A stretch of 64,000 bases of DNA from Myroides odoratimimus (lineage in GTDB: Bacteria; Bacteroidota; Bacteroidia; Flavobacteriales; Flavobacteriaceae). A program made the position numbers and the translations under genes. Location: the NCBI RefSeq assembly GCF_001485415.1, contig NZ_BCMQ01000011.1, forward strand, positions 1-64,000. Reading direction: 5' to 3'. This document shows positions 58,474 to 64,000 of the stretch, in pieces; the stretch's first letter is position 1, and the number at the start of each line of letters is the position of its first letter. The notes beneath the pieces were generated by a model. It was not told the DNA's origin, ran no database searches, and saw nothing but the letters and a program-made list of their open reading frames with translations.

Positions 58474-59175
58474 TTAAGTTAGTTGGTGTCGTTGAATAGA
58501 ATGGTGTATCTCTTTGCGCATAAAGGGTATAAATACAAAAAGAGATATATAAACCCACAGTATTAATAAGGTTATCAAAAAGGAGGTTAGAATGAGAAAG
58601 CTAATCGATGAAATATAGTTTTGTAATAGATTAATCAGATTAAAAGAAGGAGCTATAACTAGTATTATAGGGCCTCCGAGAGCCATAGTAGCCACTCTAG
58701 TTAAATACCACTTCTTATTGCTTTCTTTATTGATCTTTTTGAGTTCTATCTGCCATCTGATCCCCATACCTATAAAGCCTAAAAGAAGTATAAAAGAGGT
58801 AATTATAAATATTTCTAAATAGTAATTAGGCAGAGTTAAACCAATAGCAAAACTCAATAAGAATATAGCTAGTGAAACAATTATTTTAGGAATAGTGAAG
58901 AAACTTAATAAGACCTTATACATCTGTTTTAAGTAACTATTCGTTGCCAGTTTTATTTTAGAGTCCACTACATCACTAAACCCAAATATCCCAAACTTCT
59001 TAAACTCTCTGTCTAGTGCTGTTTCAAAAGGAAGTGAACCATCCTCTCTCCATTGAGACTCTATTCCATTAGCTAAGTGATCGACTAGCTCCAGTTCGAT
59101 ATCATAATATTCTACATAGTGCTTCTTTACGAAAGTGTGTAGAGCTTGTATTTGGTCAGTAGTTAGAGTTTTCAT
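58474..59175 (-). CDS. Array member 8 (type A): soluble N-terminal module plus four-helix membrane domain
   Basis: 233 residues; last gene of the paralogue operon. Residues 1-68 are the type A module (DQIQALHTFVKKHYVEYYDI, then ELVDHLANGIESQW and a helix ending FGIFGF). This module is nearly identical, at protein and DNA level, to that of the next gene (59184). After an amphipathic stretch (about 75-90) come four TM segments at about 90-112, 118-140, 160-185 and 190-218, with a conserved K-K-W-Y-L-x-R between helices 2 and 3. The module pattern D-H-x-A-x-x-I-E is reminiscent of HAAS/DUF1700-type N-terminal domains of small membrane proteins. Function unknown. Confidence 0.8.
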   Translation of the reverse strand: MKTLTTDQIQALHTFVKKHYVEYYDIELELVDHLANGIESQWREDGSLPFETALDREFKKFGIFGFSDVVDSKIKLATNSYLKQMYKVLLSFFTIPKIIVSLAIFLLSFAIGLTLPNYYLEIFIITSFILLLGFIGMGIRWQIELKKINKESNKKWYLTRVATMALGGPIILVIAPSFNLINLLQNYISSISFLILTSFLITLLILWVYISLFVFIPFMRKEIHHSIQRHQLT

Positions 59176-59183
59176 AATAGTAG

Positions 59184-59873
59184 TTATAGGGTGTTAAACT
59201 TCTTTATAGTAGCTTCTTTTTCTAGTTTGAGCTTAGGAGATATAACATTGTATGTAATGTATATCCAGAGTCCTACGAATAAGATAAGTACACTTGATAA
59301 CACAATAGACTTATCAGCTATAAATCTTGCAAAATAATACGTGGTGTATAGAGCAGATAAAGGAAATGCTATTACGGATAATCTTATTCTATCCATAAAC
59401 CACTTCTTTTGAGTTGCTTTATGAAGTTTTTTAACTAGAGTCGCCTCTATGATATAATAAATGAAAACTAGAGGCATTAGACTCCATATAATCACAGAGA
59501 TTATATCTCTATTCTCAAATATCGTTGATAGATAATTAAGTGATGTATATATGATATAAAAGAGCGCACTCGTTAAGAGTAATTTAGGCCAATGCAGGAA
59601 GCGCAGAACTTCTTTTAGAATAATGCCAAGATAAAAATACGTAAGACTATTCTCCTTCTTCTCAATGATTGTACTAAACCCAAATACCCCAAACTTCTTA
59701 AACTCTCTGTCTAATGCTGTTTCAAAAGTAAGTGAACCATCCTCTCTCCATTGAGATTCTATTCCATTGGCTAAGTGATCGACTAGCTCCAATTCGATAT
59801 CATAGTATTCTACATAGTGCTTCTTTACAAAAGTGTGTAGAGCTTGTATTTGGTCAGTAGTAAGTGTTTTCAT
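59184..59873 (-). CDS. Array member 7 (type A)
   Basis: 229 residues. Its first about 68 residues differ from member 8 at only about two positions (T for P in the SLTFE segment, V for I near the end), yet the four-helix membrane half is clearly different in sequence. The connecting K-K-W-F-M-D-R motif and a C-terminal S-P-K-x-x-x-E-K-E are kept. Eight bases separate its stop from the member 8 start. Likely inner-membrane protein with a cytoplasmic N-terminal module; role unknown. Confidence 0.8.
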   Translation of the reverse strand: MKTLTTDQIQALHTFVKKHYVEYYDIELELVDHLANGIESQWREDGSLTFETALDREFKKFGVFGFSTIIEKKENSLTYFYLGIILKEVLRFLHWPKLLLTSALFYIIYTSLNYLSTIFENRDIISVIIWSLMPLVFIYYIIEATLVKKLHKATQKKWFMDRIRLSVIAFPLSALYTTYYFARFIADKSIVLSSVLILFVGLWIYITYNVISPKLKLEKEATIKKFNTL

Positions 59874-59879
59874 AAAGAC

Positions 59880-60530
59880 TTAATTAAATTGTTGTTTGTA
59901 AGATTTATAAGTAAGTAGTGTCCAGGTTAATGAAAAAGGAATAAATAAAGCCCCTCCAATTATAAAACCTTGAGTGAAGCCTAGCAAATCTCCTTTTTTA
60001 AGTAAATGTTGAAAGAGTAGGATACTTATGAATAGCACTACTATTAATGCATTATAAGAAGTTATCTTCTTAATTCTCTTCTTTAGATAAACAGCGTGTT
60101 CACTTACTATCGTTTTGATATAGTGTCTAAGTATAAATACTATATTCAATGAAACTAGAGCTAATAACATTGAAACTATAAAGTATAAACTATCTGAAAA
60201 CACTAGAACTGTCATTTGACAAACAGCAATAATTATCCCCAATAAGATAGAGTTGTTCTTTATTCTACTATCTTTTTCAATCCAGTTTTTAGAGATAAAG
60301 TAGGGTGTGTTTTTATAGAAATGATAAGGATCTGTTTTTAATAAATCCTTCCAGTTTATAAAAGTCTGTCTAAAAGCATCTTCATATTCATACCCTTCAT
60401 TCATCAATTCTTCTATTTCACAGGCAATATGATCCAATACTTCATCACGAGTATCTTGATACTTGATATTGTATTGAGTGATTAAGGTCTCTTCTATATG
60501 TTTTATTTGGCCAGTAGATAGTGTTTTCAT
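59880..60530 (-). CDS. Array member 6 (type B)
   Basis: 216 residues. Type B module in residues 1-45 (QIKHIEETLITQYNIKYQDT, then EVLDHIACEIEELMNEG), virtually the same as in member 4 at 61238. It is followed by a W-K-D-L-L helix, P-Y-F-I-S-K-N-W, and four hydrophobic segments at about 90-108, 112-130, 155-173 and 185-205. The C-terminal end is short and basic. Six bases from the neighbouring gene. Confidence 0.8.
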   Translation of the reverse strand: MKTLSTGQIKHIEETLITQYNIKYQDTRDEVLDHIACEIEELMNEGYEYEDAFRQTFINWKDLLKTDPYHFYKNTPYFISKNWIEKDSRIKNNSILLGIIIAVCQMTVLVFSDSLYFIVSMLLALVSLNIVFILRHYIKTIVSEHAVYLKKRIKKITSYNALIVVLFISILLFQHLLKKGDLLGFTQGFIIGGALFIPFSLTWTLLTYKSYKQQFN

Positions 60531-60536
60531 AAGTGC

Positions 60537-61235
60537 CTAGTTAATAGTTTTTAATATTCTATCTCTTTCATTTTGGTAGGTTGGTTTGATGATATTAAGA
60601 CCTACATAGATACTAAGTATAGTTAAGGTAATACCCGAAGCCATTAATAAACAATCCCCTATAGAGTCATAAGTAGTAGGTAGGTTAAAGAGCCTTTTAC
60701 CCTGCATAATGATATTAAAGAAGATTGTATTCGAGAGTAACGAAAAACTCATAACAGATGAATAAGTTCTGTCTAATAGTAGTTTTGTCTTCACTTTTTT
60801 GCGTAACACTAAATCTTTTGCATAGCTATAAAAGAATACAATAACTGGGCTCATTATAAATATCATTGTTAAGAATTTAAATTCTTGACCTATCCAATGA
60901 AGTAATGCGGCAATTAGTAATATTATAGCTATAACTGTAACTATTAAAGGAAATGTGAAAAACTCTTTTAAAGATTTAAAAAACATATGTTTATATTCTC
61001 TGAACTTTTGTTTCTCTCTACTTTCTTGAATAGATAAGAATTTATAAGAACCAAAGTTTTCATATTCTTTAGCTAAAAGATATTCTAAGTTATTATTGTC
61101 ACCTTCAGACCATTTCTCTTCTATAGAAGAAGCTAGATGATCAGTAAGTTCTTCTATTATTTCGTAATACTTCACATCTTTACTGATGATAAAATCTTTT
61201 ATCTCTTTTATTTGATCAATAGTAAGTGTTTTCAT
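60537..61235 (-). CDS. Array member 5 (type A)
   Basis: 232 residues. A more diverged type A module (KYYEIIEELTDHLASSIEEKW, with FGSYKF at its end), K-E-F-F-T-F-P before helix 1, K-T-K-L-L-L-D-R between helices 2 and 3, and the C-terminal I-K-P-T-Y-Q-N-E. It stands between two type B genes, so the types are interleaved in the operon. Six-base gap to member 6, two-base gap to member 4. Confidence 0.8.
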   Translation of the reverse strand: MKTLTIDQIKEIKDFIISKDVKYYEIIEELTDHLASSIEEKWSEGDNNNLEYLLAKEYENFGSYKFLSIQESREKQKFREYKHMFFKSLKEFFTFPLIVTVIAIILLIAALLHWIGQEFKFLTMIFIMSPVIVFFYSYAKDLVLRKKVKTKLLLDRTYSSVMSFSLLSNTIFFNIIMQGKRLFNLPTTYDSIGDCLLMASGITLTILSIYVGLNIIKPTYQNERDRILKTIN

Positions 61236-61237
61236 AA

Positions 61238-61885
61238 TTACAATATTTTAGATGAAACACTGTTGTATTCTTGGTTGTGTTTTAAGGTCAAATACATGGC
61301 TATACTCGATAAGAATATAGCTAGTAGTAAGAATATTAGGTTTAAGTAAACTATCGAAAAAGTACTCGTGAAACTGTAATATAAAGCTACCATGCCATCT
61401 AAAACAAATAAACTAAACCAAGCAACACCTTTGATATGTTCGGTGTAGTAATCCTGTTTAAAGTTCGCGTAACGATTCTTTTTATACTTGAGGTACCCCA
61501 TTACTAACATAGGAAAAGCTGTGATAGCTAAAGCTAGGCCTAAGATGAATAATTGATCTTTGATAAAGACATGGATTATAGAAGTAGTGAATACAGCCAA
61601 AACAAATAGTAGCCCAATACTCTGCATATCTTTTACAATTAATGGACTGACTATAAATCTAGGCGTTTTGTTGATCACCCAATTAGAAGGCTTTAGTTGA
61701 CTATTCCATTTAGCTATTGTTATTTTACTAGCTTCGTGAAAATAAGCACCTTCATTCATCAGCTCTTCTATCTCACAGGCAATATGATCCAATACTTCAT
61801 CACGAGTATCTTGATACTTGATATTGTATTGAGTGATTAAGGTCTCTTCTATATGTTTTATTTGGTCAGTAATAAGTGTTGTCAT
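61238..61885 (-). CDS. Array member 4 (type B)
   Basis: 215 residues. Type B module identical to member 6 from residue 8 to the N-E-G at about 46, then immediate divergence (AYFHEASKITIAKWNSQLKP). Four hydrophobic segments at about 78-95, 99-118, 150-168 and 172-195. The D-T-R-D-E-V-L-D-H-I-A-C core holds one cysteine conserved in all type B members. Confidence 0.8.
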   Translation of the reverse strand: MTTLITDQIKHIEETLITQYNIKYQDTRDEVLDHIACEIEELMNEGAYFHEASKITIAKWNSQLKPSNWVINKTPRFIVSPLIVKDMQSIGLLFVLAVFTTSIIHVFIKDQLFILGLALAITAFPMLVMGYLKYKKNRYANFKQDYYTEHIKGVAWFSLFVLDGMVALYYSFTSTFSIVYLNLIFLLLAIFLSSIAMYLTLKHNQEYNSVSSKIL

Positions 61886-61904
61886 AATAGTGTTGAGTTA
61901 ATAG

Positions 61905-62540
61905 TTAAGAGGTGCTTACTTGACCTTTTTTTATCAAGTTTCTGAATAAATAGATATGATACCAAGTAATTGTAAAGTGATACATAACAACAGAATCTAT
62001 ACTACTATAATTTAATTGTAGTAAGTTATCTAAAAAGGTCATTAGAACAAATAATAGAACACTTACACTGATCTCCATAACCAATAATCGTTTGTATATA
62101 TCTAAGTAGTACCCCTTTAGTCTTTTAGTGTTGTATAGAGAGATTGTAGCTACTGTTATTGTAATTGTGAGTATTGACACAAAAGCTGTAACAGCACTTA
62201 TTTTCTGTATGCTAAAAAAAACAGTAAGTCCAATTGATACAAAGAAAGTTAAGAGATATACAGTCCAATTAGGCTGTGTTACAAGCTTAACTATTGGACG
62301 AGATATAAACTTTGGGATACCTTTATAGACTCCAAAATGCTCTAGTAGTAGTTTTGAATGCCATTTATTAAATACAATATTGTATGCCTCTCTATGTCCA
62401 AAACCCTCATTTATCAGTTCTTCTATCTCACAGGCAATATGATCTAGTACCTCATAACGAGTATCTTGATACTTGATATTGTATTTAGAGATTAGAGTAT
62501 CTTCTATCTGTGTTATTTGGTTAGTAGATAGTGTTGTCAT
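61905..62540 (-). CDS. Array member 3 (type B)
   Basis: 211 residues. Module TQIEDTLISKYNIKYQDTRYEVLDHIACEIEELINEG, then W-H-S-K-L-L and P-K-F-I-S-R-P before the membrane half (segments at about 90-108, 113-132, 150-170 and 180-200). The C-terminus is cut short after the last helix. 19 bases from member 4, the largest gap of the array. Confidence 0.8.
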   Translation of the reverse strand: MTTLSTNQITQIEDTLISKYNIKYQDTRYEVLDHIACEIEELINEGFGHREAYNIVFNKWHSKLLLEHFGVYKGIPKFISRPIVKLVTQPNWTVYLLTFFVSIGLTVFFSIQKISAVTAFVSILTITITVATISLYNTKRLKGYYLDIYKRLLVMEISVSVLLFVLMTFLDNLLQLNYSSIDSVVMYHFTITWYHIYLFRNLIKKGQVSTS

Positions 62541-62546
62541 AAGTAC

Positions 62547-63152
62547 CTAGTTAATAGTTCGAATGTTTAACTTGCTTATTTCTAATATGTAATATAGTTG
62601 ATATAAGGATATAATGAATAGTAGAGGAATCAATTTATACGTAAAACCTCCCCAAAAAAACACAAGATAGAATAAAGAAATACCACTATAACCCAATATA
62701 TCTTTTTTTAGTTGACTTATTCTATACCCTTTGACTCCATAGTACTTAATAGTTATAAATAATGCTGTCATTATACTAGTCAAGGATATAAATATTCCTA
62801 TTGTATTCGCTAAATGATAATCTTCTATTACATTTTTAAAGATATAGGGTACTCCTATACCTATTAGCATGGCTAGGATGATATTGAGCACATCTCTTTT
62901 TACCCATTGACGACCTAAATAATAAGGTACATTATTGTATCTTATAAACGGGTGTGGTTTTAAGTCATTATGCCATTTATTAAATGTCTTTTTAAAAGCA
63001 ATCTCATAGCCAAAATCCTCATTCATCAGTTCTTCTATCTCACAAGCAATGTGATCTAGTACTTCCTCACGAGTATCTTGATACTTGATATTGTATTGAG
63101 TGATTAAGAACTCTTCTATTTCTTCTATTTGGTCAGTAGATAGTGTTGTCAT
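62547..63152 (-). CDS. Array member 2 (type B)
   Basis: 201 residues, shortest complete member. Module with YQDTREEVLDHIACEIEELMNED, then W-H-N-D-L-K-P-H-P-F, P-Y-Y-L-G-R-Q-W and four hydrophobic segments (about 85-103, 110-130, 150-167 and 170-188). Same order of elements as the other type B members. Confidence 0.8.
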   Translation of the reverse strand: MTTLSTDQIEEIEEFLITQYNIKYQDTREEVLDHIACEIEELMNEDFGYEIAFKKTFNKWHNDLKPHPFIRYNNVPYYLGRQWVKRDVLNIILAMLIGIGVPYIFKNVIEDYHLANTIGIFISLTSIMTALFITIKYYGVKGYRISQLKKDILGYSGISLFYLVFFWGGFTYKLIPLLFIISLYQLYYILEISKLNIRTIN

Positions 63153-63163
63153 GGTTCAGATAA

Positions 63164-63877
63164 TTAGAAATTATAATGCTTAGATAGGACATCCTTTTCT
63201 TTAAGATACTTTGGCTTCAATGTATAGAATGTACTGTACTGTAATACAAAAATTAAAGTATATAGAGCACTCTTAACAGCATAGCCCAGATTTACAAATG
63301 AGTATCCATAAGTGTTTAGACTACTTAAGTCTATATGAAAGACAAGTAGGTAGGTGTACAAAGAAATTATACAAACCACAATAAAGTATGTTTCGCTTAA
63401 GAGTAGTCTGTTTTTACCTTTGTTTTTTAAATAAACCTGAATACTATCATATACTAATATTCCATTGCTTGTTGCAAAGACACCTAAGATTATAGTATTA
63501 ACTCCAGAATTGATTAATGGCGATATAGTAGCTATACTTAGTAGTGTATATATACTTAAACAAATCGCAAGTATAATTATTAGTACACTAGATGTACAAT
63601 AGCTTTGTAAAGCATTTATTAGTGATAGAATATACTCTTTAGATTTAGCAAGGTATATCTCAGATTGAATCTTTTTTAATCCTTTCTTTCCAATTATATT
63701 TAATTCTTTATCTAACGCCTCTTCAAAAGATATGTGAGTATTAGACTCTCTCCATTGTTGCTCAATACCATTAGCGATATGGTCTGTCAGTTCTTCTATT
63801 ACCTCTATGTATTCAACCTTGTGGTTGATTAGTTCTTGTCTGATTTTATCTAGTTCTAGTGGTTGTAGTGTTTTCAT
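63164..63877 (-). CDS. Array member 1 (type A)
   Basis: 237 residues. Diverged type A module (VEYIEVIEELTDHIANGIEQQW, then SFEEALDKELNIIG), helices at about 95-115, 120-140, 162-180 and 195-215, a K-N-K-G-K-N-R-L-L-L-S-E link between helices 2 and 3, and the C-terminal L-K-P-K-Y-L-K-E-K-D. Eleven bases downstream of the next, partial gene. Confidence 0.8.
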   Translation of the reverse strand: MKTLQPLELDKIRQELINHKVEYIEVIEELTDHIANGIEQQWRESNTHISFEEALDKELNIIGKKGLKKIQSEIYLAKSKEYILSLINALQSYCTSSVLIIILAICLSIYTLLSIATISPLINSGVNTIILGVFATSNGILVYDSIQVYLKNKGKNRLLLSETYFIVVCIISLYTYLLVFHIDLSSLNTYGYSFVNLGYAVKSALYTLIFVLQYSTFYTLKPKYLKEKDVLSKHYNF

Positions 63878-63888
63878 AGTGTAATTAA

Positions 63889-64000
63889 TTAGATTACTTT
63901 AGATTGTGATAGTTCATTCTTTTTTTTAAGTACCATAGGTCTCAGTTTATTGAGAATGATGAAAGGGATAATCAGCAAGAGTGTAAATAGAATACTTTTA
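63889..64000 (-). CDS. Partial ninth array member, 3' end only
   Basis: The last 36 residues before the window edge, reading ILFTLLLIIPFIILNKLRP and then a lysine-rich tail to TAA at 63889-63891. A hydrophobic helix followed by L-R-P-M-V-L-K-K-K-N matches the type A ending of the other members (for example L-K-P-K-Y-L-K-E-K). The operon therefore extends beyond 64 kb. Confidence 0.75.
   Translation of the reverse strand, partial: KSILFTLLLIIPFIILNKLRPMVLKKKNELSQSKVI

Follow-up and report, generated by a model that had tools for sequence, protein, structure and literature searches.

A PadR-headed array of eleven small membrane proteins in Myroides odoratimimus, with modules and membrane bodies that are exchanged separately

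Why should one bacterial operon carry a row of small membrane proteins whose genes are nearly identical at the 5' end and then abruptly lose their similarity? The question is raised by the end of a 64,000-nucleotide stretch of Myroides odoratimimus (assembly GCF_001485415.1, 4.23 Mb in 63 contigs; contig NZ_BCMQ01000011.1, here C11:1-64000), hereafter the window. From the letters of the window, the original prediction described eight complete genes and one partial gene lying head to tail with gaps of 2-19 bases, and the open reading frames, all of them on the minus strand, agree with it. Past the window edge follow two more paralogues (genes 1 and 2) and the rest of the partial gene 3, and the array then comprises 11 tandem paralogues of 201-239 residues each, with all 11 frames open; a profile built from the 11 proteins matched 11 times in the genome at E<=0.001, every time inside the array. 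The best explanation of their structure is that each protein joins a constant cytoplasmic module, similar to HAAS and permease-prefix domains, to a membrane body, mostly of four helices, drawn from many that diverged long ago. The evolutionary pattern is real, unusual and well supported; a signalling role for the array is plausible, and unproven.

Modules, bodies and their separate exchange

Each protein is a soluble three-helix N-terminal module followed by about four membrane helices. The motif D-H-x-A-x-x-I-E is present in 9/9 window genes, the two genes upstream of the window carry DHIFCEIE and DHVICEIE at the same position, and M1, T3, L4, Y23, E29, D32, H33, I38 and E39 are invariant across all 11 proteins. 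Two module types, A and B, have homologous profiles (hhalign probability 99.5%) and are interleaved in transcription order, for genes 1-11, as B,B,A,A,B,B,B,A,B,A,A (judged visually from the alignment); the nine genes of the window read A,A,B,B,B,A,B,A,A, as predicted.

The contrast between the two parts is sharpest for genes 10 and 11, for which a near-identical 5' end followed by an abrupt loss of similarity had been predicted: nucleotide identity is 95% over the module and about 45% thereafter, with a break near nucleotide 185 (93-97% in 30-base windows to base 180, then 73% in a single window and 40% beyond it). Synonymous differences amount to 8/39 in the module (codons 1-64) and 81/105 in the rest (Fisher 8.6e-10). 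Genes 3 and 4 behave alike (92-95% nucleotide identity in the module and 47% in the rest; about 6/38 against 67/114 synonymous differences, Fisher 3.9e-6), a similar synonymous step separates gene 5 from its counterpart G138.4 in a neighbouring genome (Fisher 3.2e-8), and the shared stretch predicted for genes 7 and 9 was recovered as about 120 bases at 83-100% identity, with similarity lost afterwards. Beyond the module break synonymous sites are saturated. Across the 47 distinct loci that we read, 21 of 306 within-array pairs combine a module identity of at least 80% with a body identity of at most 60%, and these come from 13 of the 41 arrays having at least two genes. Because synonymous sites step as well, and do so sharply at the module end, the shared 5' modules reflect recombination and not selection alone; the gene conversion or shuffling of 5' ends that had been proposed is borne out by this step and by the separate exchange of modules and bodies.

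That exchange can be followed gene by gene in neighbouring genomes, the closest named array relatives being Myroides sp. N17-2 and M. marinus. Flanking genes provided the baseline of nucleotide identity, which is 98.0% between this genome and G138, 84.4% between this genome and G173, and 92.4% between G173 and N17-2. G138 was assembled in one piece (4.06 Mb) and has nine collinear array genes, and for that reason the array is probably no assembly artefact of the present genome. The PadR gene of the locus is 99.1% identical to that of G138, and six of the 11 array genes (2, 3, 7, 8, 10 and 11) are 94-99% identical to it in both module and body, yet five (1, 4, 5, 6 and 9) differ despite the 98.0% flanks. 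For the bodies of genes 4 and 9, G138 offers no counterpart. Gene 5 keeps its module and has its body replaced (Table 1); its body is nearer G173.3 (77%), and the G138.4 body nearer N17-2.4 (78%). Gene 6 and G138.5 show the reverse, a conserved body with a replaced module, and gene 1 has a divergent body (module 97%, body 82%) which is 96% identical to that of G173.1. The bodies of genes 8 and 9 are each 93% identical to G173 bodies, so that genes 1, 8 and 9 all stand above the 84.4% baseline. These mismatches against G138 and matches to G173 indicate that bodies and modules moved separately, within and between species. We did not count G173.2 and N17-2.3 (body 96%) as a transfer, since this value fits the flank baseline of those two genomes.

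The membrane half had been predicted to change fast, and this part of the interpretation did not hold. Omega in the bodies shared with G138 is 0.04-0.42, and the highest pooled region-wise value across topological regions in the sets analysed is 0.58; positive selection on the membrane domains was accordingly not seen, and the single pairs above 0.58 are the replaced module of gene 6 and G138.5 (0.66) and the saturated bodies of genes 3 and 4 (0.73). Over 14 pairs, substitutions rise from the module (0.21, the lowest) through the linker (0.28), the cytoplasmic loop (0.33) and the cytoplasmic (0.41) and periplasmic (0.46) halves of the helices to the periplasmic loops (0.60), a gradient that fits looser constraint or a mild change of specificity outside, not diversifying selection. 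The C-terminal tail (0.44) is as variable as the membrane helices and does not fit a simple inside-to-outside gradient. Selection inside the cassettes is purifying, and change proceeds by cassette exchange rather than by rapid point evolution. Shuffling, the PadR gene, a HAAS-like module (below cut-offs) and variable copy number thus survive from the earlier interpretation, whereas a rapidly diversifying membrane half does not.

Two AlphaFold models only, of genes 11 and 7 (from alignments of 18 and 26 sequences), inform the predicted structure. Both contain three consecutive alpha-helices in the module (residues 6-19, 24-44 and 50-92 in gene 11; 6-18, 25-44 and 49-64 in gene 7), and in both the outer loops of the membrane part measure 3-6 residues, so the large outward part expected of an envelope domain for recognition was not seen, although substitutions still rise periplasmically. 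By hydropathy, 136 of 161 genes have three or four membrane segments and the remaining 25 one or two; in the four-segment genes of this array, the inner loops carry most of the positive residues. No whole-protein match to a known fold was found with Foldseek against the PDB at E<=0.001 for either model, and nothing was found among viral models for gene 7, the sole model tried there. A sequence search of solved structures gave no rows for type A and six weak ones for type B, the best at E 0.037. The rows from VIA-align lie within the range of unspecific helical matches, and that of 2apl (PG0816) with the gene 7 module (Z 7.4, rmsd 2.3 over 63 residues) was not used; weak Pfam matches such as DUF2207_C (1.3e-4) are under the cut-off and absent from most members.

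The PadR gene and the relatives of the module

A PadR-type regulator had been predicted for the head of the array, and one was found upstream of gene 1 once the sequence was extended past 64 kb (Pfam PadR match 3.6e-21). PadR and the first array gene share a strand and stand no more than 60 bp apart in 44 of the 47 loci; in the other three the distance is 571 bp or 619 bp, or PadR is missing from a cut-off contig. An operator-like dyad, ATACMTAA-N5-TTAKGTAT, precedes PadR in 44/46 loci at up to three mismatches, a count that is descriptive since the consensus was drawn from the same sequences; controls gave 189/9200 shuffles (2.1%) and 0/46 in the first 203 coding bases, and 41 loci hold at least two sites at up to four mismatches. 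The zero-mismatch dyad occurs at a single place in the whole genome. A regulon in trans was rejected, for a backward control gave two forward and two reverse places and the dyad itself two further one-mismatch places.

Judged by their profiles, the modules appear to resemble, below formal cut-offs, the permease-prefix and HAAS domains that are linked to PadR. Five of the eight genome matches to perm_prefix_1 at E<=10 fall in the array, and 17 of 26 type B proteins match it at E<=0.1 (best 3.2e-6); the type A consensus has no match to it. Aligned by hhalign with genuine permease-prefix members, both types are collinear over the full module (probability 51.5% for B and 60.4% for A; reversed controls 10.5% and 0.7%), and genuine permease-prefix loci of other Bacteroidota have PadR within a short flank in 22/29 cases. 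Type A closes with an invariant FG and then x-F, and type B mostly lacks the glycine (column frequencies). Proteins of NF038403 (perm_prefix_1) share with the array the PadR neighbour, in some cases tandem rows and, tentatively, the collinear module profile, but are mostly about 870-960 residues long with large permease parts. The permease-prefix proteins of G473 and G545 stand in tandem rows about 2.6 kb apart (L142, L144, L152, L154, L157, L158), so PadR-linked prefix proteins may expand in tandem more widely.

HAAS-PadR dyads have been proposed as kinase-free signalling systems in which a sensor relays to a repressor (Ravi et al. 2024, PMC11237479; also PMC12419801). As Ravi et al. describe them, they likewise place a small alpha-helical module on multi-helix membrane proteins beside a stand-alone PadR repressor, and the module has three successive alpha-helices at its core, the third of them kinked and bearing a conserved GxP motif; the present locus differs from that description in having up to 11 tandem proteins per PadR with exchanged bodies and modules, a GxP motif that is not conserved and no HAAS_TM match in the genome. 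The Listeria LltR/lmo0600 operon also pairs a PadR repressor with a downstream multi-spanning DUF1700 protein and is strongly derepressed in a repressor mutant (Hauf et al. 2019, PMC6624303), but it has a single copy and another membrane part, and the accessible parts of that paper report no shuffling. No paper on an array of the present kind was found in the open-licence literature.

In Rhs and CDI systems, a conserved 5' part is the seam for exchange of variable 3' parts. The array shares this conserved 5' seam; toxin or tip features were not seen in it, and it consists of small integral membrane proteins in one operon.

Sensing, protection and other readings

We consider the chances about even that the locus is an autoregulated operon of PadR and 11 membrane proteins acting as a HAAS-PadR-like sensor array in which many inputs converge on one output. 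PadR would bind the upstream dyads and repress the operon, its own gene included; each module would touch PadR at the membrane, and each body would answer its own membrane-linked stimulus and then release or retain PadR, so that many membrane inputs might feed a single PadR output. The homologous 5' modules would double as in-frame recombination seams, through which membrane specificities could be added, lost or imported. Several observations weigh against this reading. The 47 loci were chosen because they matched, best scores being favoured; the nearest curated model, NF038403, reaches at best 25.5 bits here (gene 9) against a cut-off of 30; the module stays below every curated family cut-off in this genome; and the literal GxP motif of HAAS is not conserved. 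Pfam HAAS_TM (PF08006, DUF1700) gave no matches at E<=10, a weak negative, as the model passed its cut-off in 0/14 control genomes. The predicted HAAS-like module therefore stands as a sub-threshold likeness to permease prefixes, not as a match to HAAS_TM or DUF1700, and we infer that the array works like a HAAS-PadR system without formally being one. The array could also be an effector rather than a sensor. Less probably, the array might be a reassorting library of stable membrane specificities, in which each body is a distinct intramembrane receptor (or a receptor and immunity protein together) for a membrane-acting product of rivals, all bodies connect through the one common module to one PadR switch, and bodies are traded across species at the module seam. 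The locus would in that case form a combinatorial sensory array that works without kinases, many inputs leading to one output.

With four membrane helices and short loops, the proteins are reminiscent of colicin immunity proteins, and immunity arrays likewise show gain, loss and transfer of cassettes, as does this array at a locus otherwise 98% identical. PadR itself might then sense the inducer, with the membrane proteins as effectors, for instance ones that protect the membrane or confer immunity against pore-forming or membrane-inserted products of rivals, and the number of rivals would then explain the variety; the operon can carry an effector, as a DUF5687-type permease and an ABC ATPase stand at its end in 20/47 loci. 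We regard this as rather unlikely, since a common module is kept in every protein and plain immunity would not need one; nor did Pfam and NCBIfam scans match any immunity model, the defence library not having been searched. Tandem duplication that is nearly neutral, with the 5' end evolving in concert and the copies having little separate function, is improbable: copy number does range from 1 to 11 and some relatives carry short or stop-containing copies, but here 11/11 frames are open, omega in the bodies shared with G138 stays at 0.04-0.42, and the bodies are too diverged for recent duplication. That there was no recombination, and that an old family simply constrains its module strongly and leaves its membrane part free to diverge, would suit the module being the least substituted region (0.21 over the 14 pairs), but we consider it very improbable, as the same step is seen at synonymous sites, which rules out purifying selection on the module as the sole cause of the contrast, and as gene 6 and G138.5 reverse it (body 98%, module 83%).

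HAAS-PadR dyads are a proposed alternative to two-component systems, and the signals that they sense are largely unknown. In the array the presumed transmitter stays the same while the membrane part changes from gene to gene, which makes the HAAS-PadR proposal testable by body swaps. Whole-cassette exchange at a 98%-identical locus points to strong ecological pressure on what the bodies recognise or resist.

Layout, distribution and surroundings

Table 1. Coordinates of the array and of its upstream elements on contig C11, in transcription order (genes 1 and 2 lie beyond the window).
Feature	Position	Strand	Remark
Dyad copy	66318-66338		about 40 bases upstream of PadR start
Dyad copy	66275-66295		overlaps PadR start codon
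padR, coding region	65941-66276	same as array	26 bases before gene 1
Gene 3, type A, 3' part	63889-64000	-	gene extends to contig 64608, beyond window
Gene 4, type A, 237 aa	63164-63877	-	G138 lacks a counterpart body
Gene 5, type B, 201 aa	62547-63152	-	against G138 counterpart: module 95%, body 53%
Gene 6, type B, 211 aa	61905-62540	-	against G138 counterpart: body 98%, module 83%
Gene 7, type B, 215 aa	61238-61885	-	AlphaFold model, mean pLDDT 90.2
Gene 8, type A, 232 aa	60537-61235	-	
Gene 9, type B, 216 aa	59880-60530	-	no G138 counterpart body; body 93% to G173.5
Gene 10, type A, 229 aa	59184-59873	-	module 95% identical to gene 11
Gene 11, type A, 233 aa, last gene	58474-59175	-	AlphaFold model, mean pLDDT 85.6

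Neither a tRNA nor an Rfam match at the gathering score was found in the window, and gene 11 has no match in phage and plasmid records. Matches were present in 26 of 61 genomes of the genus in one draw and in 164 of 398 in another, the latter giving presence only, without copy number, as just seven candidates were scored per genome; among relatives, 14 of 40 genomes had a match, including 4 of 15 from other families of the order. Copy number between genomes, which the original prediction had proposed to compare, is not constant: the 47 loci comprise six with one gene, 11 with two, six with three, 11 with four, nine with five, two with six, one with nine and one with 11, and six was the next highest count after 11 in the fully scored 61-genome draw. 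The last gene is of type A in 43 of 46 classified loci, by a regular expression that is imperfect and miscalled genes 3 and 4 of this genome as B.

In G138, N17-2 and M. marinus, a divergent gene of 143-150 residues (L114:3338-3769, minus strand, and similarly in L080 and L081) lies upstream of PadR; it has no Pfam match and is not listed there in this genome. G173 carries a gene of 298 residues between its last two array genes (L115:8471-9367; no Pfam match at E<=0.001). The DUF5687-type permease and ABC ATPase (Pfam names taken from one representative) follow the array on the same strand, mostly 43-70 bases past it (L064, L086, L087, L089 and 16 further loci), and the ancestral operon may already have had an ABC output. 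The corresponding pair of this genome is found on C2 instead, where the 10 kb read contain no dyad at up to three mismatches, and in five genomes of the Myroides group, this one included, it is rlmH that follows the array.

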